A stretch of 64,000 nucleotides of DNA from Tissierellia bacterium (GTDB taxonomy: Bacteria; Bacillota; Clostridia; Tissierellales; Sedimentibacteraceae): NCBI GenBank assembly GCA_012843025.1, contig DURT01000083.1, forward strand, positions 1 through 64,000. Reading direction: 5' to 3'. The stretch's first letter is position 1, and each line of letters starts with the position of its first letter. Below are positions 15,805-57,105 of the stretch, piece after piece. The position numbers were made by a program, and so were the translations under genes. The notes under the pieces were generated by a model that searched no databases, was not told where the DNA came from, and worked only from the letters and a program-made list of their open reading frames with translations.

Positions 15805-17139
15805 TTACTGTCTTTTTAAAGCTTCAACAGGTGGAAGGTTGGATGCGTTTATGGCTGGATATACGCCGAACAATAAGCCTGAAGTCAGTGCTACAAATAC
15901 TGCTACCTGTATGGAGTCAAGACTGACAACGGCAGAAAGTCCATACCTTGCCACAACACTTATAGCCCATGCTCCCAAGATAATTCCCACTAGACATCCT
16001 ATAATGCTGACATAAACAGCCTCTAATAGAAACTGTATTAACAAGTCTTCTTTTTTAGCTCCTAAAGCTCTTCTTACCCCTATTTCTCCCGTTCTTTCCG
16101 TTACTGCAACAAGCATAATATTCATAATTCCTATACCTCCCACTAGGAGAGATACGGCAGCAATTCCACCTAAAAGAACAGTCATTATCCTATTAGCTTG
16201 GTCTGCTTCCTTAACTAAGTTGTTTAAGCTGGTAATAGTAAGAGGCTCTTGCCCTTTTTCAAAGACATTCTCATTATCCTGCGGAACATCGGGATCTTCA
16301 GGAAGAGGCATTGGCTCTTCTACAACTACTTCTTCCTCGCCATATTCTCCTTCCCCATTACCCAAGTCTGGTCTTATATTGCTTCCTAAGCCTACCTTTC
16401 TTTTATATATTCTTCCTAGCTGAACCATGGCTAATTCCGCATCTTCTGCGCTGTTAGACTTTGCCCATACTTCGAATATATCCTTAGTATTTGCTATTTT
16501 CATGGCAGAAGTATAGGGGATTACAATTTTGTCGTCTATCCCATCTCCCTTACCTTCACCTTTTTGACTTAAAACCCCTACAATTCTATAATTTATACCG
16601 TCAATTTTTATAGTATGGCCTACTGGACTTCTGCCGTTTAACAGTGAATTAGCTACATTGAAACCTAGTACTGCCACGGGAGACCTTTGCTTAACGTGAA
16701 GAGATGTAAAAAAGTTCCCTGAAGCTACTGGATGGTCCTTAATTTCAGGATAGTTTTCATTTACTCCTACAAGGTTTGTCTTACTTTCGTCTCTTCTCCA
16801 CCTTATAGGCGTATCTTCCGTGTAAATAACTGGGGTTGCATATTCAATCCCCGTTACTCTATCCGGCAATATTTCTACTTCTTCTATATCAAATTTTACA
16901 TTTTCATCATTAGATTTCAGAACGATTACATTCTCTCCCAAGCTTTCAAATTGTTCAACTATGGATCTTCTGGCTCCTTCTCCTATACCCATTAAACTTA
17001 TAACTGCCGCAACTCCTATAGAAATGCCAAGGACTGTTAAGAAGGTTCTGAGCAAATTTGAAGTAATGCCATCTATAGCCATCATGGCAGAAAATTTCAA
17101 CCTTACAAAAAGGTTTGAAATATTTCCTCTGTCTTGCAT
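15805..17139 (-). CDS. MacB-type ABC transporter permease
   Basis: Permease of a MacB/FtsX family exporter. An N-terminal helix (about 28-50, with LRTFLTVLGISIGVAAVI) precedes a large extracytoplasmic MacB_PCD domain, and three C-terminal helices carry the FtsX core (GGIGIMNIMLVAVTERTGEIGVRRALG region). An acidic Glu/Pro-rich insert lies near residues 275-300. AAGGAG is eight bases before the ATG at 17139; two earlier NTG codons lie within or right behind it. Operon with the ATPase and adaptor. The substrate may be a peptide or antibiotic; not determinable. Confidence 0.9.
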   Translation of the reverse strand: MQDRGNISNLFVRLKFSAMMAIDGITSNLLRTFLTVLGISIGVAAVISLMGIGEGARRSIVEQFESLGENVIVLKSNDENVKFDIEEVEILPDRVTGIEYATPVIYTEDTPIRWRRDESKTNLVGVNENYPEIKDHPVASGNFFTSLHVKQRSPVAVLGFNVANSLLNGRSPVGHTIKIDGINYRIVGVLSQKGEGKGDGIDDKIVIPYTSAMKIANTKDIFEVWAKSNSAEDAELAMVQLGRIYKRKVGLGSNIRPDLGNGEGEYGEEEVVVEEPMPLPEDPDVPQDNENVFEKGQEPLTITSLNNLVKEADQANRIMTVLLGGIAAVSLLVGGIGIMNIMLVAVTERTGEIGVRRALGAKKEDLLIQFLLEAVYVSIIGCLVGIILGAWAISVVARYGLSAVVSLDSIQVAVFVALTSGLLFGVYPAINASNLPPVEALKRQ

Positions 17140-17151
17140 CTTCATCACTCC

Positions 17152-18882
17152 TTAATTTGTACTTGGTAAGAATGAATCATTTCCGGGTACGGACTGGCTG
17201 GGCATTAAATCACTGGTACTGCCTGTAACCACAAGCTGACCTTCTTCCAAGCCACTAAGAACTTCCACATACATATCATTCATTAAACCTACTTCTATTT
17301 CAACAACTTCTACCTCATTTTCTCCTACAAGAACTTCAACTTTCTGTCTGCCATTTTCTTCAAATACAGCTTCTATTGGAACTAACAAAGTGTCTAAGGA
17401 TTCTCCTGAGTCTACGAAACAGTTAGTATTCATTCCAGGTCTTAATCCTTCTCTACCTTCCACTCTTATCTGTACATTGTAAACAGTCTTGCCGTCTCTG
17501 TAATCTGTATATTGGTCAAGTCTAACAACTTTTCCGTCAAAAGTTTCTCCGGGAAGAGCGTCCACCGTTATTATAACGGGAGCATCCTGTCTTATGTATA
17601 GAACATCCAAGTCAGAAACGTTGGTATATATATACATTTCATCCGTGTTATACATATCCATAAGCATTAAATCCCATTGGTCACTATGTTCTGTAGCAGT
17701 TATCTGGTCTCCCTCCCTGTAATTCACATAAGATATCATTCCATCGGAAGGAGCTGTAACTATTAACTTAGAAGTTAATTCATTAACCTTGTCTATTTTT
17801 TTATTTATATTCTCAATTTCATTATACAGTGAATCTATGGCATCAATTTTAGACTGAATGCTTTCTGCAACATCACTACCTGCAATTCTTATAAGGGTTT
17901 GACCTTCTTCAACAAATTCATTTTCTGTTACTAATACTTCAGTTACAATTACTGATTTGTCGAAATTACCTGTATAGTGTACCTTCTTTTCATTTAAGAA
18001 AGAAGAAACCGTTGCATTAAAATTAAAGGCTTGAACAGGGATACCGTCATTTTGCTTATATATTATAGCAATCATCCCCGGTTGTATTAGTCCAGGATTT
18101 ATTGCCTCTATCATACCGTTATGTACATAGTAAAGGTTATCTGAATTAGGTACAGCATTTTTATTTATAGATGTTATAGTTCCTTTAACAAAGCCACTAA
18201 AGGCAGGAACTCTCTTTTCCCTTCCTTCATCATCTTTAGTAACTTTCATAATTTGCATCAATACTTCTTCGCCGGCAGTAATATTTTCAAACTCATATTG
18301 ATTTACTTTGAAGGGTATTTTTACAACACTATCATCTACAATAGTAGCTATTAAGCTGCTTTCCAATATATCACCTTCTGTTACGGATATATTGCTTACC
18401 CTGCCTCTTATAGGAGCACTAATAACTATACCATCGCTGGGATTTACTTCAGAAACACTGGTAATATCCCTGTTTATTGTTCTCCCTAATTCAGCAATCT
18501 TTGCGTTTATTTCATCCTGTTTCTTTCTTATGCTGTCGGTTAACTCTGTCAATATATCTTCTAAGTTGGTAGCTGACAAACGTACTAATTCATCACCTTT
18601 TTTTATCATTTGATTAGGTTCCACATATACTTCTTCCACCGTATATGTTACAGACTCACTAATACCTTCAGGTCTGGGTGCTGTAATTGAACCTCCCCAG
18701 TTTCCGCTTAATTGGCCTGATATATTTACTCCCTGCTTAATATCACCTCTTATAACAGCCTTAGTCGAATATCTGGGTCCTGAAACCTGAGCGTCAGTAG
18801 GAACCAATTGTTTGGCAGTTAAATATCCTCCATAAAATACTAATCCTAATACTACTATGCCTGTAATAATTTTTTTATACAT
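17152..18882 (-). CDS. HlyD/MacA-type periplasmic adaptor subunit
   Basis: Membrane-fusion-type adaptor of the ABC exporter, comparable to YknX. A signal-anchor helix (about 5-22) leads into two lipoyl/barrel-sandwich modules, at about 60-190 (VEPNQMIKKGDELVRL, VTEGDILESSLIATI) and about 300-400 (VEEGQTLIRIAG, YVNYREGDQI). A beta-barrel and membrane-proximal domain follow (GKVVRLDQYTDYRDGKTVYN region, GLRPGMNTNCFV). 576 aa is long for the family because the lipoyl part is doubled. It overlaps the ATPase stop by eight bases. Confidence 0.88.
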   Translation of the reverse strand: MYKKIITGIVVLGLVFYGGYLTAKQLVPTDAQVSGPRYSTKAVIRGDIKQGVNISGQLSGNWGGSITAPRPEGISESVTYTVEEVYVEPNQMIKKGDELVRLSATNLEDILTELTDSIRKKQDEINAKIAELGRTINRDITSVSEVNPSDGIVISAPIRGRVSNISVTEGDILESSLIATIVDDSVVKIPFKVNQYEFENITAGEEVLMQIMKVTKDDEGREKRVPAFSGFVKGTITSINKNAVPNSDNLYYVHNGMIEAINPGLIQPGMIAIIYKQNDGIPVQAFNFNATVSSFLNEKKVHYTGNFDKSVIVTEVLVTENEFVEEGQTLIRIAGSDVAESIQSKIDAIDSLYNEIENINKKIDKVNELTSKLIVTAPSDGMISYVNYREGDQITATEHSDQWDLMLMDMYNTDEMYIYTNVSDLDVLYIRQDAPVIITVDALPGETFDGKVVRLDQYTDYRDGKTVYNVQIRVEGREGLRPGMNTNCFVDSGESLDTLLVPIEAVFEENGRQKVEVLVGENEVEVVEIEVGLMNDMYVEVLSGLEEGQLVVTGSTSDLMPSQSVPGNDSFLPSTN

Positions 18883-19573
18883 TTTTCTCCTCCACCTTGC
18901 TATCGGAAACTATTTGACCATCCACCAATCTTATGATTCTTTTGCCGTATTCTGCAATTTCCTCTTCATGCGTAACCTGGACGATGGTCATGGATTTTTT
19001 TTCATTTAATTCAATAAATAATTCCATAATCATTTCCCCGGATTTTGAGTCTAATGCCCCCGTAGGTTCATCGGCTAAGATTATCGAGGGATTTCCTACT
19101 ATTGCCCGAGCTATGGCCACTCTTTGCTGCTGTCCTCCTGACAGCTGGGCAGGTAAATGATTCATTCTATCCTTTAAGCCAACCTGCTCCAAGGCTGCTT
19201 CCGCCAGCTCCCTTCTTTGTTTTGAATTCATACCCCTATATATAAGAGGTATTTCTACATTCTTTAGGGCATTCATCCTGGGCAGTAAATGAAAGCTCTG
19301 AAATACAAATCCAATGAATAAATTTCTTACTTGGGACATTTTTGAATCATTTAATTTATCTACCTTAGTTCCTGCCAATTCATATGTACCGCCTGAAGCA
19401 TGATCTAAGCATCCTATTATATTTAACAGTGTTGACTTGCCAGATCCCGAGGGTCCCATTATTGACACAAATTCCTTTTCTTTAATTTCAAAGGAAATGT
19501 TCTTTAATGCTTCAACCTGTAATTGTCCCGATTTGTAAAGCTTGGAGATATTCTCCATCCTTATAATATTCAT
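18875..19573 (-). CDS. ABC transporter ATP-binding protein (MacB/LolD type)
   Basis: ATPase that powers the exporter encoded downstream. Walker [10 protein letters not shown], signature [14 protein letters not shown], Walker [13 protein letters not shown] and the H-loop VTHEEE are all present. 232 aa. First gene of the three-gene operon; GAGAGAGG precedes the start. Confidence 0.95.
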
Positions 19574-19684: not shown

Positions 19685-19704
19685 AGAACGACAAAAGTCG
19701 TTCT
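19685..19704 (-). terminator. Weak hairpin after the pseudokinase-like gene
   Basis: AGAACGAC/GTCGTTCT is a perfect eight-base stem with a four-base loop. On the minus strand only ATTTTG follows, so termination is probably weak. The 180-nt gap holds nothing else I can assign. Confidence 0.4.
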
Positions 19705-19753: not shown

Positions 19754-21205
19754 TTACTTTATTACATCTATTAACAGAGAATCGATCCATACCTTGTTTT
19801 CACCTTCGTATTCCAAGTAAATATATAAAAGTTCTGCATCGGTTACATTTATAGGAACTGTAAAAGGAGACCAAATATCATCATATACATTTACTATAGT
19901 ATGAAAATTTGATTTTATTACTCCATCCTTGTAGGCTTCAAAAACGACTTGTGCTTCCACATCCTTTTGAGATTTTATTTTAGCTGAAACGCCAATTTGC
20001 TGCATAAGCATATAGTTATATCTTTCGTCTGTAAAGTCAACAGCAGCAAACAATGCCTTAATTTTCTCACTTCCCGTATTTGATACCAGCAGGGAGTTAC
20101 TTCCTTCCAAAAAAATATTTTTATCAACTTCAGCCAAATTGCCACTATATCCAGTTTTTTCTAACAGTTCATTGTTAAAATGTACCAGAGTTGAATCTAT
20201 AGCAGGTTCTTCCGGAACTTCATCAGTTTCACCTGAAGGCTTTTGGTCTAATTGATCTGATTTACCTGTCTGGTCTGGTTTATCTGATTGGTCTGACTGC
20301 TCCCACTCCACAGGATTAACTGCTTCTTTATCCTCTCTTAATTTTTTTGTTATTGTATTTCCTATAAGAAGTACAGCAACGACTATCAACAATGAAACTA
20401 CTGCTCTTTTTATATCCTTACTAATAACATTTTTTTTCTTTACCGGTTCCGGCTCACTACCTTCTAAGTAAATATCTAAAACATTCTCCTGGGGTACTTC
20501 TTCCTCTATTAGTTCTTCTACTTGATCATCTGTCTTTTTCTGAGGCTCATTTGTTTTAATTTCTCCAAAAATCATTGTATATATGGATGAAGTTTTTAGT
20601 TCTTTTAATGCCTCTTCTGGAAAAATATATTCCCTGGTTAAACACCTTACTATTATTTTTAAAATATCTGGAGGTATTGAATCGGAAATATTGTAATCTA
20701 TAATTTCTGTTCCGGAAAAAATAATATGTATTAAATTACCTAACCTCTTAAAAGTTTCATTGTCTGCTATGTCGTATTCCTGCTCAAATATTAGGTTACA
20801 ATCTACTACTATATCATTATTCTCATTAATATATAATCTGTCTAAATCTAAAATTTTTTGCTGTACCACATCAGTCATCTTAAAAATATTCGTTGCTAGA
20901 TTTATTGATTTTTCAGTTAAATTGAACTGTTGTTTTAAAGTAAGGTTATCTGTTACATATTCTCTGAATTTTTTGCAGCTGTCTAAAGGCTTCGTAAAAA
21001 TATAAATTCGGTCTTCTGTATTGTAACATTCTAAAATATTAGAATTAATTTTTTTTAAATCTTCAGTATTTATTAAATTTATTACTTTTTCACTAGTTAT
21101 TATATTAGTATAAAAAATCTCACCCGTATCATTGTCCTTGCATTCTAAAATTCTTTGGAATACATTTTCATGAATACTACGGATAATCTTGTAATTATTA
21201 TTCAT
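19754..21205 (-). CDS. Pseudokinase-like membrane protein with C-terminal beta domain
   Basis: Not a named family to me. Residues 1-215 follow the layout of a Ser/Thr kinase fold (N-lobe YKIIRSIHENVFQRILE, catalytic-loop-like LDRLYINENNDIVVD, C-lobe FKRLGNLIHIIFSG) but lack the glycine loop, the HRD/DFG residues and a clear VAIK lysine, so it is likely inactive. One transmembrane helix lies at about 267-285, then a Ser/Asp/Gln/Lys-rich linker (about 300-337), then an extracytoplasmic beta-rich domain (338-483) resembling carbohydrate-binding jelly rolls. It stands alone with its own GGAGG site. A surface sensor role is inference. Confidence 0.6.
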   Translation of the reverse strand: MNNNYKIIRSIHENVFQRILECKDNDTGEIFYTNIITSEKVINLINTEDLKKINSNILECYNTEDRIYIFTKPLDSCKKFREYVTDNLTLKQQFNLTEKSINLATNIFKMTDVVQQKILDLDRLYINENNDIVVDCNLIFEQEYDIADNETFKRLGNLIHIIFSGTEIIDYNISDSIPPDILKIIVRCLTREYIFPEEALKELKTSSIYTMIFGEIKTNEPQKKTDDQVEELIEEEVPQENVLDIYLEGSEPEPVKKKNVISKDIKRAVVSLLIVVAVLLIGNTITKKLREDKEAVNPVEWEQSDQSDKPDQTGKSDQLDQKPSGETDEVPEEPAIDSTLVHFNNELLEKTGYSGNLAEVDKNIFLEGSNSLLVSNTGSEKIKALFAAVDFTDERYNYMLMQQIGVSAKIKSQKDVEAQVVFEAYKDGVIKSNFHTIVNVYDDIWSPFTVPINVTDAELLYIYLEYEGENKVWIDSLLIDVIK

Positions 21206-21296: not shown

Positions 21297-21575
21297 TTAC
21301 TCTTCCTCATCCTTTTTAACTTCATATTCAACATTTTCGATTATATCTTCTTCTTTGTAATTATTGGCATAATATTTTTTAGTTTTTTCGTAAACTTTCG
21401 TCAGTAGAAATCCCAACATTATTAAATCATCTATAATACTAAATCCGAAAACCGGGACAGGAATTAAATCAACAGGACTCAATATATATAAAAGGGGTAT
21501 AATTACCCACCACTTTTCTCTTAATGGAATATTTTTATCCAATAGAAATTTTATTAAGAATAATAATCTGTTCAT
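21297..21575 (-). CDS. DUF1232 (YkvA-like) membrane protein
   Basis: 92 aa. The DUF1232 core WVIIPLLYILSPVDLIPVPV followed by FSIIDDLIMLGFLL is clear, with two hydrophobic segments and an acidic C-terminal tail. Function unknown. It lies eight bases after the universal-stress-like gene and is probably co-transcribed with it. Confidence 0.85.
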   Translation of the reverse strand: MNRLLFLIKFLLDKNIPLREKWWVIIPLLYILSPVDLIPVPVFGFSIIDDLIMLGFLLTKVYEKTKKYYANNYKEEDIIENVEYEVKKDEEE

Positions 21576-21583
21576 AATGTGAC

Positions 21584-21946
21584 CTAAAGAATAAATTCAA
21601 CATTGGGAAGTTTTTTTTGTAGTTTGGAAACAAAATTATTTGATGGATTGTTGGAGCTTCCTAATACTATGTGAGTACAATGAATTTCTTCAGCAAAATC
21701 AACTATAGATTTTATTACATCCTTTGATCGCTTAACTACTAAATTTGCACCAACTTCCTTTGTGATTTCGAATAAATACTCTAAGGCATCGCCGTCGCTT
21801 AAACCATACAAAAGTTTATCATTTTCGTTTACAACGTGTATCACATTGAGACTACTGCCTTCTTCCTTTGATAACTCCGCTCCTTTTCGTATAAGTTTAG
21901 CACAAGTTTTTTGTCGCGTAACACATACCAATATGTTTTTGGGCAT
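21584..21946 (-). CDS. Universal stress protein-like (Usp domain)
   Basis: 120 aa with the Usp alpha/beta fold: an N-terminal ILVCVTRQKTCAKLIRKGAEL resembling the Usp module of KdpD, and a C-terminal HIVLGSSNNPSNNF matching the nucleotide-loop region, although the typical G-x2-G-x9-G-S/T is degenerate. Role unknown; possibly nucleotide-binding. AAGGAG precedes the start and a good promoter lies about 75 nt upstream. Confidence 0.72.
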   Translation of the reverse strand: MPKNILVCVTRQKTCAKLIRKGAELSKEEGSSLNVIHVVNENDKLLYGLSDGDALEYLFEITKEVGANLVVKRSKDVIKSIVDFAEEIHCTHIVLGSSNNPSNNFVSKLQKKLPNVEFIL

Positions 21947-22022
21947 ACTAATTCTCCTTAAATGGCGGGAATACGCGGGAATTAAACCTACTTGATTTCT
22001 TCTATTTATCCCCGTCTTAAGT

Positions 22023-22051
22023 ATGATACCATATTACACCCATTTGTTCAA
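22023..22051 (-). promoter_or_regulatory. Promoter of the Usp-DUF1232 operon
   Basis: Minus strand TTGAAC (22051-22046), 17-bp spacer, TATCAT (22028-22023) with TGG in front (extended -10). The leader contains two TTCCCGC copies. Confidence 0.7.
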
Positions 22052-22082
22052 GTCATTTTAAGATTGATTGAGCGCTACCTTA

Positions 22083-22766
22083 TTAATTCTTGCTTCTGAA
22101 ATAGTAGCCAACTCCCCACTTAGTAAGTATGTATTCATAAGTTTTGTTTTTATCTTCTATTTTTTCTCTTAACCTTCTAATATGTACATCCACTGTTCTT
22201 AGATCTCCGAAGTATTCGTAACCCCAAATAATTTCCAAGAGCTCCTCCCTTGAAAACACTTTTCCTGGATTAGTGATAAGCAGCAATAACAAATCAAATT
22301 CCTTTGCCGTAAGGTTAATTTCCTGATTACGAAGACTTACTTTTCTGCCTAGTGCATTTATGACAAAATCATCAACTACCAAGACCTGTTCATTATTTTT
22401 TTGCATACCCCTTGTCCTTCTTAAAATTGCTTTTATGCGGGCTTTAAGCTCTAAAATATTAAAAGGCTTGGTCACATAGTCATCAGCACCGTATTCCAAC
22501 CCTAAAATCTTATTCATATCTTCATCATTAGCAGTTAAAATTATAAGAGGAACATTTGACACCTCTCTTATTCTTTGACAAACTTCAAGGCCGTCTCCAT
22601 TTGGCAAAACTAAGTCAAGTATTACAATGTCATAGTCGTTTAAAGTGATTTTTTCTATAGCTTCATCACTATCAGCAGTAGAATCAACCTCATAATTATC
22701 TTGCTCAAAGCTATATTTAAGACTTTTTATCAAGGATTGCTCATCATCTACTATCAAAACTTTCAT
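22083..22766 (-). CDS. OmpR/PhoB-family response regulator (orphan)
   Basis: 227 aa. The receiver domain (1-120) has the acidic pair DDE at 7-9, phosphoacceptor Asp in DIVILDLVLP near residue 52, and KPF near 102. A winged-helix DNA-binding domain (about 130-225) ends with TVDVHIRRLREKIE and GVGYYFR. No histidine kinase gene lies on either side, unusual for this family. Targets unknown. Own promoter at 22815-22843. Confidence 0.93.
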   Translation of the reverse strand: MKVLIVDDEQSLIKSLKYSFEQDNYEVDSTADSDEAIEKITLNDYDIVILDLVLPNGDGLEVCQRIREVSNVPLIILTANDEDMNKILGLEYGADDYVTKPFNILELKARIKAILRRTRGMQKNNEQVLVVDDFVINALGRKVSLRNQEINLTAKEFDLLLLLITNPGKVFSREELLEIIWGYEYFGDLRTVDVHIRRLREKIEDKNKTYEYILTKWGVGYYFRSKN

Positions 22767-22814
22767 TTGTTACGCTCCTTAAATTATCTTGTTACGAAAA
22801 TTAAACTTTTACTA

Positions 22815-22843
22815 ATCTTACATAAAGTTACTGCCTTTGTCAA
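22815..22843 (-). promoter_or_regulatory. Promoter of the response regulator gene
   Basis: Minus strand TTGACA (22843-22838), 17-bp spacer, TAAGAT (22820-22815), about 50 nt before the start codon. Confidence 0.75.
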
Positions 22844-22874
22844 CACTAATATTTAAAAATAATATTTTATGCCC

Positions 22875-23459
22875 CTATCTTTGACTGCAATATATTAATT
22901 CTTTAATATTTTCGAATGTTTTCTCACCTATTCCCTTTACGTTTTTTATTTCTTCTATGGAACTGAATTTCTTATTATTTCTATATTCAATAATTCTGTT
23001 GGCATATACCTTTCCTATACCCGGAAGAGTCATTAGTTTATCAGCGGAAGCTGTATTTATATCAATTAAATCAGTTTCATATTCAACTGTACCTACATCT
23101 GCGGTTTCCTCCCCTACTTCATAGATGTATATTTTTTCTCCATCAACTAATTTTCTGGCCTTATTAAGATTCTTCGTAATTGCATTTTCTTTAAGTCCTC
23201 CTGCCATAATAATAGCATCATTTACCCTGCTACCTTCAGGCAATTTGTAAACACCTGGTTTAATAACAGCACCGTCCACATCCACATGGACAACGATTTC
23301 TTCTTTCTCATTATCTTCATTTTTCTCCTGAATATACTCTGAGTCTGTAAATACTACTTCCTTTTCTTTGCCGGATAATTTAATACCTAGAACAGTCATA
23401 ATAATTATTGCGATGATTAAAACAACGGCAAGTCCTTTTTCATAGATGCTGTTGTTCAT
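22875..23459 (-). CDS. comEA: ComEA-like SLBB/helix-hairpin-helix protein
   Basis: Membrane-anchored DNA-binding protein. N-terminal helix at about 9-26, an acidic linker, an SLBB domain (VHVDVDGAVIKPGVYKLPEG, about 63-115) and a C-terminal double helix-hairpin-helix (DINTASADKLMTLPGIGKVYA region and FSSIEEIKNVKGIGEKTFENI region). In competent bacteria ComEA binds incoming DNA; no comEB or comEC is adjacent, so transformation is not implied. AGGAGG is just upstream of the ATG at 23459. Confidence 0.85.
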   Translation of the reverse strand: MNNSIYEKGLAVVLIIAIIIMTVLGIKLSGKEKEVVFTDSEYIQEKNEDNEKEEIVVHVDVDGAVIKPGVYKLPEGSRVNDAIIMAGGLKENAITKNLNKARKLVDGEKIYIYEVGEETADVGTVEYETDLIDINTASADKLMTLPGIGKVYANRIIEYRNNKKFSSIEEIKNVKGIGEKTFENIKELIYCSQR

Positions 23460-23569
23460 AAATCCTCCTGGTAACAATTATTTGACTTGTAACGGGTAAA
23501 TTCTACCCCAAACAGTTTCTCCTTTTCTTTTATTATACATTATTTAACCAAAAAAAACAAAATTTTTAA

Positions 23570-39811: not shown

Positions 39812-40072
39812 TTATAGGTCTATTACGTTTAAGTAAACATTTAATATTTCTTCTAATATTTCGTCTCTTTCTATTTTTCTGATTAAACTTCTAGCATTAT
39901 TGTGATTAGTAATATAAGTAGGATCCCCAGACAATATGTATCCAATGAGCTGATTGTTAGGATTATATCCTTTTTCTTTCAATGACTGATAAACCTGTGA
40001 AAGTATCTCCCGGGCTTCATTTAAGGAATCCAATTTATAATCAAATTTCGCCGTACTATTAGTATTATCCAT
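39812..40072 (-). CDS. ireB: IreB family regulatory phosphoprotein
   Basis: Small protein (86 aa) phosphorylated by the Ser/Thr kinase IreK in Enterococcus, where it affects cephalosporin resistance. The segment [20 protein letters not shown] followed by [18 protein letters not shown] is diagnostic. The N-terminus has Thr/Ser (NTNSTAKF) as possible phosphosites. GGGGTGG precedes ATG 40072. The alaS-ireB-ruvX order is conserved. Confidence 0.95.
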
Positions 40073-40167
40073 AATACCACCCCTTAGCATCCATTATATT
40101 GTACTACAATTACACTATAAAATCAAATGTTAATTCATATATTTACCATTCTTAGAATAGATTGCTT

Positions 40168-52645: not shown

Positions 52646-54796
52646 ATAGATAACAAAAATATTAGGGTCGAGGCGTTTTTATATAGCGCCGAGGCCCCAA
52701 ATGATACTCAAAAACAACAATTGATAGAATTTCTGAAAAACAAATATAATAACCATGTTACTCTCACTTGGAAAGAGGACAAAAAATTAGTGGAAGGTTT
52801 TCGACTGGAAGTTGGAACGATAGATGCTACCGACCCTAATAGTAGATGGAGATTAGAAACCGTCTATGATTGGAGCTTAATGGCCAGATTACAGCAGCTG
52901 AAAGAAGAAATAACTCAAGTTTCAGCTAAAAGCGAAAATATTGTACCCCAAGTAAAAGAAAGAATAAAAAACTGGACCCCAAAGGTACTAGAACAAGAAG
53001 CAGAAATAGATTACGAAAACGTAAGGGTTGAGGCATTTTTATATAGCACTGAACCCCCAAGTGAAACTCAAAAACAACAGCTAATTGAGTTTTTGAAAGA
53101 TAAATATAATAACGATGTTACTCTTACTTGGAAAGAGGACAGAAAATTAGTGGAAGGTTTTCGACTGGAAGTTGGAACGATTGACCTTAATGATCCTACT
53201 AGCAGGTGGAAATTAGAATCCATCTATGATTGGAGCTTAATGGCCAGATTACAACAGCTGAAAGAAGAATTAAGCCAAATTTCAGTAGAAAGCGATAACG
53301 TTGTTCCCCTTATTAAAGAAACAATAAAAAACTGGACTCCAAAAGCTTTGGAAAAGTAAGTAGGAACAGTATTGACAGTGGGGGATGGTATTGCTACCAT
53401 AAGCGGTCTGCTTAATGCAACTTATCAGGAAATCTTAATCTTTTCCTCAGGTGTTCGTGGAATGGTTTTAGAGATGGAGCGTGATGTTACAGGCTGCATT
53501 TTGTTTGATGATGAGGAAAGTGTTGTTGAAGGTAGTACTGTTAGAAGAACTGGAAAGACAGCAGGAATTCCGGTTGGAGATAATTTCTTGGGACGTGTAA
53601 TCGATGCTTTAGGTAATCCCATTGATGGGAAAGGCCCAATTAATGCTGATGGATATCGTCCAATTGAATCACCCGCTCCAAGAATTGTTGACCGTCAACC
53701 AGTTAATAGACCCTTACAAACCGGTATATTAGCAATTGATGCTTTGTTTCCAATAGGGCATGGACAGCGTGAACTTATTATCGGTGACCGCCAAACAGGA
53801 AAAACCACAATTGCACTGGACACTATACTTAACCAGAAAGGCAAAAATGTAATTTGTATTTATGTGGCAATTGGTCAAAAGGCAAGCTCCGTTGCTCAAA
53901 CGGTAAATGTTCTTCGTCAACACGGTGCAATGGAATATTCAATTGTAGTTAATGCATCTGCAAGTGATCCGGCACCCCTCCAGTATATTGCACCTTATTC
54001 AGGTTGTGCCTTAGGTGAATACTTTATGAATAAAGGGCAATCTGTACTAATAATTTATGATGACTTGACTAAACATGCCACTGCCTACCGTTCTTTGAGC
54101 CTTTTACTTGAACGGTCTCCAGGACGTGAAGCTTATCCTGGTGATGTTTTTTATCTTCATTCTCGTTTATTGGAACGTTCAGCACAACTTTCCGATGAGA
54201 AAGGTGGAGGCAGTATGACTGCACTCCCTATTGTAGAAACACAAGCAGGTAACGTTTCAGCTTATATACCAACCAATATAATTTCCATTACAGACGGACA
54301 AATTTTCTTAGAAAGCGACTTGTTCTTTTCCGGTCAGCGTCCGGCAGTAAATATCGGTCTATCAGTTTCCCGTGTAGGAGGCGATGCTCAAACTAAAGCA
54401 ATGAAATCAGCCGTAGGAACACTTCGTCTGGATCTGGCACAGTACCAAGAGATGGAAGTCTTTATGCAATTTGCCAGCGACTTAGACGACATAACAAAAA
54501 AACAGTTAGACTATGGACATAGTCTAATGCAGTTACTGCGGCAGGATAAATATCGTCCATTGAAACAGTATGAGCAGATTATTCTATTAGTTGTAGGACT
54601 AAACCATGTAATGCAGGAAATTCCGTCTGAGGAAATAAAGGAGTTTAAGTTTAAGATGCTCCAGTATATTGAAGAGCAGGCACCCCATATAATTAAGGAA
54701 CTTGAGTCAAACAATTTCAACGATAAAATCAAAGAAGATATTGTAAAATTTGCTCGGGAATACTTAAAGCAATATGTATCTGGCGGTGATAAATAA
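52646..54796 (+). pseudogene. atpA: F-ATPase delta(C-terminal)-alpha fusion, duplicated N-terminus, in-frame TAA
   Basis: One reading frame, interrupted by TAA at 53357-53359, encodes two copies of a delta C-terminal-like domain (LIEFLKDKYNNDVTLTW, EGFRLEVG, DWSLMARLQQL) each followed by an alpha N-terminal helix (IKNWTPKALE), then a complete alpha subunit from [16 protein letters not shown]. Alpha motifs are intact: [48 protein letters not shown] in part. The stop falls where relatives have Glu (EVGTVL), so GAA to TAA is the likely change. The head of the frame has no ATG/GTG/TTG; ATA at 52646 after AAAGGAGTGA is the best start position. No free delta gene exists in the operon. Confidence 0.85.
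52658..53356 (+). repeat. Tandem duplication of the delta-alphaN module (360-bp period)
   Basis: Unit 1 begins at 52658 (NIRVEAFLYSAEAP) and unit 2 at 53018 (NVRVEAFLYSTEPP), exactly 360 bp (120 codons) apart. Long identical DNA stretches remain (for example TTAGTGGAAGGTTTTCGACT and GATTGGAGCTTAATGGCCAG), so the duplication is fairly recent. Confidence 0.9.
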
Positions 54797-55705
54797 ATGG
54801 TAAGTGCTAAGGAGATCAAGAACCGAATTAAAAGTATTCGTGATACTAGAAAAATCACTAATGCTATGTACATGATTGCTACTATTAAAATGCGAAGAGC
54901 AAAAAGAGACTTAGACAGCAATAGACCGTATTTTGACGCAATACAAAATGAAATGAAACGTATACTTCGAACGGTAGAGAAGGTGGAAAGCAAGTATTTC
55001 TATCCTGCCGATGGAAGTGAAGCTCCAGATGGAACTTATGGGATTTTAGTAATTACTGCAGATAAAGGATTGGCAGGTCCTTACAACAAAAATGTATTGA
55101 AAGAAACACAAATACTAATGTCAGAACATCCAGATTGCAAGCTCTTTGTTATTGGTGAATATGGACGGCGATTCTTTACACGCCAACAGGCACCTATTGT
55201 GAAGAATTTTTCATATACGGCACAGAATCCAACCATGAAGAAAGCAAGGGAAATTAGCACCATGCTCTTGGACCTGTACGATAAGGGTGAAATAGATAAA
55301 ATTTTTATTGTTTACAGTGACTTAGAGAATAGTTAGACTACAAAAGTAAATAGTGTCCGCCTTCTCCCCTTTCACAGAAAAGGATCTGTATCCTATACAA
55401 AGAAAGTGGAGGCAGAAGTATCTACACCTTTTGAATTATATCCTTCAGTTGAAGGTGTTATAGAAACTGCCGTAAGGGGCTGGCTAGCTGGTTTTATTTT
55501 CAGTGCACTAGTAAGCAGCTTTTGTAGTGAACAAAGTGCCCGTATGACAGCAATGAATTCAGCCAATAAAAATGCAGAAGAAATTTTAGAATCCCTTAAA
55601 ATTCAATATAATCAAGTGCGTCAAGCGGCTATTACACAGGAAATAACAGAAGTGACATCTGGTGTAAAAGCACAGAAAAGAAAACGTAAAAAGGAGGTGT
55701 CATAG
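54797..55705 (+). pseudogene. atpG: F-type ATPase subunit gamma with in-frame TAG
   Basis: Central shaft. The N-terminal coiled coil (KEIKNRIKSIRDTRKITNAM) and the C-terminal ARMTAMNSANKNAEEIL helix are both present in one frame of 302 codons, normal length. A TAG at 55334-55336 divides ...IFIVYSDLENS from TTKVNSVRLLPF. The C-terminal helix is needed inside the alpha-beta hexamer, so truncation at 179 aa would abolish function. Starts directly at the stop of the alpha gene. Confidence 0.88.
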
Positions 55706-55707
55706 CC

Positions 55708-57105
<1,398 letters not shown>

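Follow-up and report, generated by a model that had tools for sequence, protein, structure and literature searches.

The locus and its neighbours

The window analysed here is a stretch of 64,000 nucleotides from a contig of an anaerobic Tissierellia bacterium and encodes on its reverse strand a protein whose predicted parts are a cytoplasmic pseudokinase domain, a juxtamembrane segment, one membrane helix, a linker and an outer jelly-roll domain (Table 1). Homologues of this protein were found in 38 of the 61 genomes searched, comprising its own and 60 relatives, and the gene can therefore be regarded as real. The protein matched no family in a Pfam scan, and NCBIfam gave nothing useful apart from one chance-level match (E 0.13). 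Pfam scans of 34 full-length relatives returned weak matches only, with CBM_4_9 in three of them (best E 3.9e-4), while two of 26 N-terminal domains matched Pkinase at E 0.016 at best. Since neither Pfam nor NCBIfam has a model for its pseudokinase part, most proteins of this type probably carry the annotation 'hypothetical'.

Table 1. Features of the pseudokinase locus and further genes of the window.
Feature	Position	Strand	Size or residues	Basis
Pseudokinase ORF	19754-21205	(-)	483 aa, ATG start	
Cytoplasmic pseudokinase domain (predicted)	20561-21205	(-)	residues 1-215	AlphaFold, structure comparison, motif table, hhalign
Charged, variable juxtamembrane segment	20405-20560	(-)	residues 216-267	alignment of 34 full-length relatives
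Single transmembrane helix, N-inside (positive-inside rule)	20348-20404	(-)	residues 268-286	hydropathy and charge count
Polar outer linker	20198-20347	(-)	residues ~287-336	composition
Outer jelly-roll domain, CBM4/CBM22-like (predicted)	19757-20197	(-)	residues 337-483	AlphaFold, structure comparison, family profile spanning 337-483
Terminator-like hairpin 3' of the pseudokinase	19685-19704	(-)		8-pair stem, T-rich tail
YkvA-like membrane protein (DUF1232), directly upstream	21297-21575	(-)	92 aa	Pfam PF06803, E 3.5e-5, over cut-off
Universal-stress-protein (USP) domain protein	21584-21946	(-)	120 aa	Pfam PF00582, E 4.1e-10, over cut-off
MacB/MacA-like ABC operon	15805-19573	(-)		by eye
OmpR-type response regulator	22083-22766	(-)		by eye
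IreB-like ORF	39812-40090	(-)	92 aa	by eye
ATP synthase operon	52721-57105	(+)		by eye

Upstream of the pseudokinase gene, the USP and YkvA genes are spaced by 8 bp, and a further 91 bp separate the YkvA gene from the pseudokinase. Among the 38 genomes with a family profile match, 34 have a USP gene no more than 2.5 kb upstream in the same orientation, and 28 have a YkvA gene at most 500 bp away from the pseudokinase. Several of the misses are explained by a contig end (G006, G019) or by wider spacing (G015, G021, G025). The usual arrangement reads USP-[DsrE]-[YkvA]-pseudokinase, with a DsrE-like gene in between in some families and the pseudokinase in last position. An earlier sequence-only reading of the window had described the protein as lacking a partner gene, with no true kinase or phosphatase adjacent. 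The ORF neighbourhood agrees with this for kinases and phosphatases, but the reading overlooked the conserved USP and YkvA genes. In 14 genomes, of which two are truncated at contig ends, a USP gene occurs that lacks the pseudokinase, so USP does not need it; for ten of the remaining twelve the USP locus was inspected, and none of these loci contains a pseudokinase. The pseudokinase thus accompanies the USP gene often, though not in every case. Furthermore, no USP gene was seen beside those relatives with PKD (f36) or LysM (f28) outer parts whose flanks were available, so that the USP link is lineage-specific and may represent inherited gene order.

The hairpin downstream of the gene weakly suggests that the pseudokinase ends the transcript, the region having two terminator-like sites against a mean of 1.3 in shuffled sequence. 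Directly after the pseudokinase follows the MacB/MacA-like operon, which encodes an ATPase, a fusion-like protein and a permease; its MacB-like genes are conserved at this place in the family of the window and in f3, not in most others, and are probably a separate unit. The gene of the OmpR-type response regulator has no adjoining histidine kinase gene in the window; in other families belonging to the order, the regulator gene is followed by ORFs resembling a histidine kinase (cluster c13) and a lipoprotein (cluster c18).

Conservation and selection

End-to-end alignment was achieved for 34 sequences from across the order. Its invariant or near-invariant positions include N14, Q17, C22, N34, P178-P179-D180, Y193 and S206 in the inner domain as well as G368, W445, W473, D475 and K483 in the outer domain, with Q17 of the glycine loop being strictly invariant. 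Nei-Gojobori dN/dS values for six pairs range from 0.04 to 0.18 for the inner and from 0.06 to 0.18 for the outer domain, which indicates that the gene is under purifying selection and is not decaying. In five of the six pairs, the inner domain shows amino-acid-changing differences less often than the outer one. The protein is one member of an order-wide family, and more distantly related proteins occur in other parts of the class.

The inner half is predicted to adopt a kinase fold

AlphaFold2 modelling of residues 1–225 with ten aligned sequences yielded a mean pLDDT of 88.6 and a pTM of 0.83. Foldseek returned 1986 PDB chains for this model at E ≤ 0.001, the best 50 of which are all kinases, and a second structure aligner superimposed it on BRAF (Z 15.1, rmsd 3.6, 201 residues) and on the S. 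aureus PASTA kinase Stk1 (Z 14.9, rmsd 4.4, 202 residues), two scores to be read as tied, as are all rows less than one Z unit apart. One relative (L025), which contains X, was excluded from the structure alignments. Sequence profiles point in the same direction. A profile of 26 inner domains found S. aureus PknB as top match in the PDB (E 1.4e-10), all 60 matches listed being named as kinases, and hhalign against five Hanks-type chains gave a probability of 98.4 % over 206 columns. Searched against its own genome, the inner-domain profile has the resident PASTA kinase as second match (E 2.7e-6), and in most relatives the second match again falls in a kinase-sized frame. By the models and profiles, residues 1–215 almost certainly adopt the two-lobed Hanks-type fold of the protein kinase superfamily. 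The kinase-like cytoplasmic half proposed by the sequence-only reading has thus held up, and the outcome named there as fatal to the proposal, a structure prediction lacking a kinase fold, did not occur.

Loss of the catalytic residues

A motif table was compiled from 32 members aligned with five kinase chains. Three short-tailed relatives (L111, L116 and L118) were aligned but kept outside the 32 as their β3 region aligns poorly, and another short-tailed protein (L117) as well as the two chains of L063 were inspected without being included as members. None of the 32 retains the β3 Lys, which is replaced by Asn in 28 and by Asp, Gly, Thr and His once each, none retains the HRD Asp, and a single member (L112) retains the DFG Asp. 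The HRD column depends on the alignment, yet no HRD-like motif is present nearby. In the protein of the window, the three columns are occupied by Asn34, Ile118 and Cys136, respectively, its glycine loop carries Gln17, and the activation segment is deleted, appearing in hhalign as a gap of about 24 columns relative to the kinases. None of the three residues that define an active Ser/Thr kinase is thus present in this protein, and the inner domain is very probably catalytically dead, in line with the earlier assignment of a kinase-like half devoid of catalytic residues. The Lys-to-Asn change is common to the order of the window and to members of families f28, f31, f36, f59, f80 and f91, and therefore looks like a family signature.

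Membrane helix, linker and outer domain

A single strongly hydrophobic segment is present in each of the 34 full-length members. In 33 of them more Lys and Arg residues precede this segment than follow it, which makes it highly likely that the N-terminus lies inside and the C-terminal domain outside. The linker of the window's protein spans 51 residues, 80 % of which are D, E, N, Q, S, T, P, G or K. For residues 330–483 AlphaFold predicted an all-beta jelly roll (pLDDT 91.8, pTM 0.87), a β-sandwich of the CBM4/CBM22 type that most closely resembles CBM22 and CBM4 modules (against the CBM22 structure 4xup: Z 11.4, 132 residues, rmsd 3.0). The alignment of the C-terminal domains was made without one relative (L029), the sequence of which is broken in this part. 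Meprin domains and toxin receptor-binding domains score within one Z unit of the CBM modules, so the CBM-like fold is no proof of sugar binding; on balance, we slightly favour a wall or surface glycan as ligand of the modelled domain. The single helix, the polar linker and, at the level of the fold, the carbohydrate-binding-like outer domain of the sequence-only reading are all recovered in this analysis, and the sensor-like layout that it had deduced from them is strengthened by relatives in which PKD or LysM domains take the place of the outer domain.

Relatives with exchanged outer modules

A first search of the class matched 40 of 293 genomes, mostly via the linker or the transmembrane helix, with the f36, f28 and f52 rows (E < 1e-7) reflecting the kinase part. 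Later searches used the N-terminal domain profile at E ≤ 1e-11 and returned 21 of 391 genomes in the class and five of 398 in the phylum, the own genome being included in both counts. Both results also contain G093, whose locus L063 encodes a kinase pair and not a family member. These tandem membrane kinases (L063, 1036–2004 and 2044–3246), in which the HRD Asp is changed to Tyr in one and intact in the other, form a possible kinase/pseudokinase pair.

The outer parts of the retrieved relatives differ. In family f36, to which 11 of the class genomes belong, both scanned proteins (L052 and L055) have PKD over the Pfam cut-off, whereas LysM domains over the cut-offs occur twice each in the f28 proteins L061 and L062 and once each in L108 (f87) and L109 (f31). 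L110, L112 and L113 have a longer outer part. The jelly-roll profile, in a test set of 15 proteins, recognised L112 (E 5e-11) and L113 (E 1.4e-8), with L110 reaching just 0.014; the PKD-like part of L110 and L112 stays under the Pfam cut-offs, and L113 had no match in the Pfam scan. L111, L116, L117 and L118 have a short tail only, and the relative at L117 adjoins a gene for a membrane protein (L117, 1155–2297) with many MORN-like repeats recognised by eye. In an inner-domain tree of 49 rows, 35 pseudokinase and 14 kinase rows are split at 100/100 and the jelly-roll rows join the PKD-like-plus-jelly-roll rows at 96/87. Rows with LysM occupy two positions in this tree, L108 and L109 being long branches whose placement is unsure. 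LysM generally binds peptidoglycan, and its presence at the same place in relatives favours an envelope ligand. Retention of the inner domain while the outer part changes suggests that the inner domain carries the common output.

The resident PASTA kinase

A genome search for a partner Ser/Thr kinase, which the sequence-only reading had put forward, yielded a single Hanks-type match, located on another contig and not linked to the pseudokinase gene. Its locus reads, by eye, rlmN, prpC (PP2C), prkC with PASTA repeats and rsgA. The IreB mentioned in the same reading corresponds to the IreB-like ORF beside alaS in the window. No FHA domain match was obtained in this 97 %-complete genome.

The general layout is shared with the PASTA kinases PrkC, IreK, PknB and StkP, which likewise have an N-terminal kinase fold inside, a transmembrane helix and an outer binding domain, and the resident copy is a detectable homologue. 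Unlike them, the protein of the window is predicted to be dead and carries a jelly roll instead of PASTA repeats, none of which were matched in its Pfam scan.

Comparison with described pseudokinases

Bacterial pseudokinases are little studied; seven classified families and a few single cases are listed in the review PMC12599244. Among these, the C-terminal part of mycobacterial MviN (Rv3910, P9WJK3; ActPs3 family) is nearest in layout. It comprises a pseudokinase, a transmembrane helix and a carbohydrate-binding domain, is phosphorylated by PknB and read by FhaA, and shares with the window family the loss of all motifs and a deletion in the activation loop (PMC12599244). In contrast to MviN, the window family does not follow a MurJ flippase, its ORF beginning with the pseudokinase and having one transmembrane helix, and it belongs to Bacillota instead of Actinobacteria. 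The VALT-type β3 Thr described for ActPs3 (PMC12599244) occurs in one of the 32 members (L108), compared with Asn in 28. Despite the matching activation-loop deletion, we rejected ActPs3 as a home for the family on the β3 residue, the missing MurJ fusion and the missing FHA reader. MviN structures did not appear among the matches listed in the structure comparisons, which counts neither for nor against a relationship.

EssB/YukC of type VII secretion is a Firmicutes pseudokinase with a shortened activation loop and a single transmembrane helix, and has the Arg of LDMR at the β3 position where the window family has Asn (PMC12599244). As its C-terminal segment is described as helical (PMC3694306), the all-beta jelly roll led us to reject this home, too; no type VII secretion genes were recognised by eye among the neighbours of the pseudokinase. 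The membrane-associated DYD pseudokinases of Firmicutes and Actinobacteria, characterised by a β3 Arg and DYD for DFG, and the GLW pseudokinases, with GLW for HRD and Leu or Trp at β3 (both as outlined in PMC12599244), were rejected since their features are not found in the motif table. In the open-access literature, we found no description of the present family and nothing useful on YkvA/DUF1232. The family looks undescribed, while the membrane pseudokinase with an outer domain is already known as a kind.

Proposed function and alternatives

We consider a receptor-like membrane pseudokinase scaffold that reports the state of the envelope about as probable as all other readings together; its architecture is well supported, whereas the output is inferred. 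The outer domain would hold or sense an envelope glycan or wall component, and the cytoplasmic lobe, incapable of phosphate transfer, would act as a docking platform that alters its conformation, clustering or position along with the envelope. Likely clients would be the product of the neighbouring USP gene, together with YkvA at the membrane, and/or PrkC, the single PASTA kinase, either by hetero-association or with the pseudokinase as PrkC substrate. Gene linkage points to USP and YkvA, homology and analogy to PrkC; that the inner domain is a scaffold for these particular clients is rather doubtful.

An arrangement as in the MviN tail, in which phosphorylation of the pseudokinase or of its juxtamembrane tail by PrkC lets a phospho-reader throttle cell-wall synthesis, is unlikely, although the order of parts matches, the MviN pseudokinase lacks all three motifs and its family shows the activation-loop deletion as well (PMC12599244), and the genome has one PASTA kinase with an adjoining PP2C-like ORF. 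With no FHA domain match in the nearly complete genome, a readout through an FHA domain, as known for MviN, probably does not work here in the same manner, and the absent flippase fusion, the β3 Asn in place of VALT (PMC12599244) and the missing linkage to PrkC speak against this arrangement, too. We judge it similarly improbable that the protein is an anchor or adhesin whose outer domain fastens the membrane to the envelope or to a polysaccharide, with the kinase fold as a structural plug. The outer domains are indeed all of binding or adhesion type and catalytic residues are absent, but a mere plug would need neither the stronger constraint on the inner domain observed in five of six pairs nor its retention when the outer part changes.

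Another activity of the kinase fold, such as nucleotide binding or AMPylation at a site rebuilt around Asn34 and Gln17, is quite improbable. The prevalent β3 Asn suggests selection on this site, Q17 is invariant, and pseudokinases with new activities such as SelO and SidJ exist (PMC12599244); however, the equivalent of the metal-binding Asp is missing in 31 of 32 members, the activation segment is gone, and SidJ reuses its Lys and Asp (PMC12599244). Lost catalytic motifs and the patchy presence in 38 of 61 genomes might finally be taken as signs of a decaying remnant of a receptor kinase, but this explanation is nearly refuted by purifying selection (dN/dS 0.04–0.18 in the six pairs) and by a layout that is conserved in many families of the order.

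Returning to the scaffold reading, we tentatively extend it to a previously unnamed receptor-pseudokinase family in several Bacillota lineages, for which we see somewhat less than an even chance. Such a family would keep the dead kinase with its β3 Asn and one membrane helix while swapping the outer sensor between jelly roll, PKD-like plus jelly roll, PKD and LysM, and its members might act as co-receptors that are attached to the wall or to a glycan and guide either the cell's one PASTA kinase or USP-type effectors, a bacterial parallel of the animal receptor pseudokinases. A dead kinase that is retained while its outer binding module is swapped would show that kinase-fold co-receptors, besides kinases, watch the bacterial envelope.

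Further observations in the region

In all seven relatives scanned (L021, L022, L024, L030, L031, L033 and L036), selC, the gene of the selenocysteine tRNA, is found shortly before the USP gene, and selB- and selA-like ORFs were recognised by eye nearby in several of these. No tRNA-Sec is present in the window, the stretch concerned being 21946–23477, and a search of its genome for SelB gave nothing over the cut-off, so that the Sec machinery seems to have been lost from this spot in the lineage. An ATPase-like ORF with a GxPGxGKS motif is conserved close to the USP gene or the pseudokinase gene in several families of the order (L036, L038, L041, L042, L082, L083 and L085–L088). Elsewhere in the window, the ATP synthase operon looks fragmented, with gamma-like (179 aa) and beta-like (296 aa) ORFs that each fall below the usual length and a stretch that is repeated within the delta-like ORF, possibly as a result of assembly errors.
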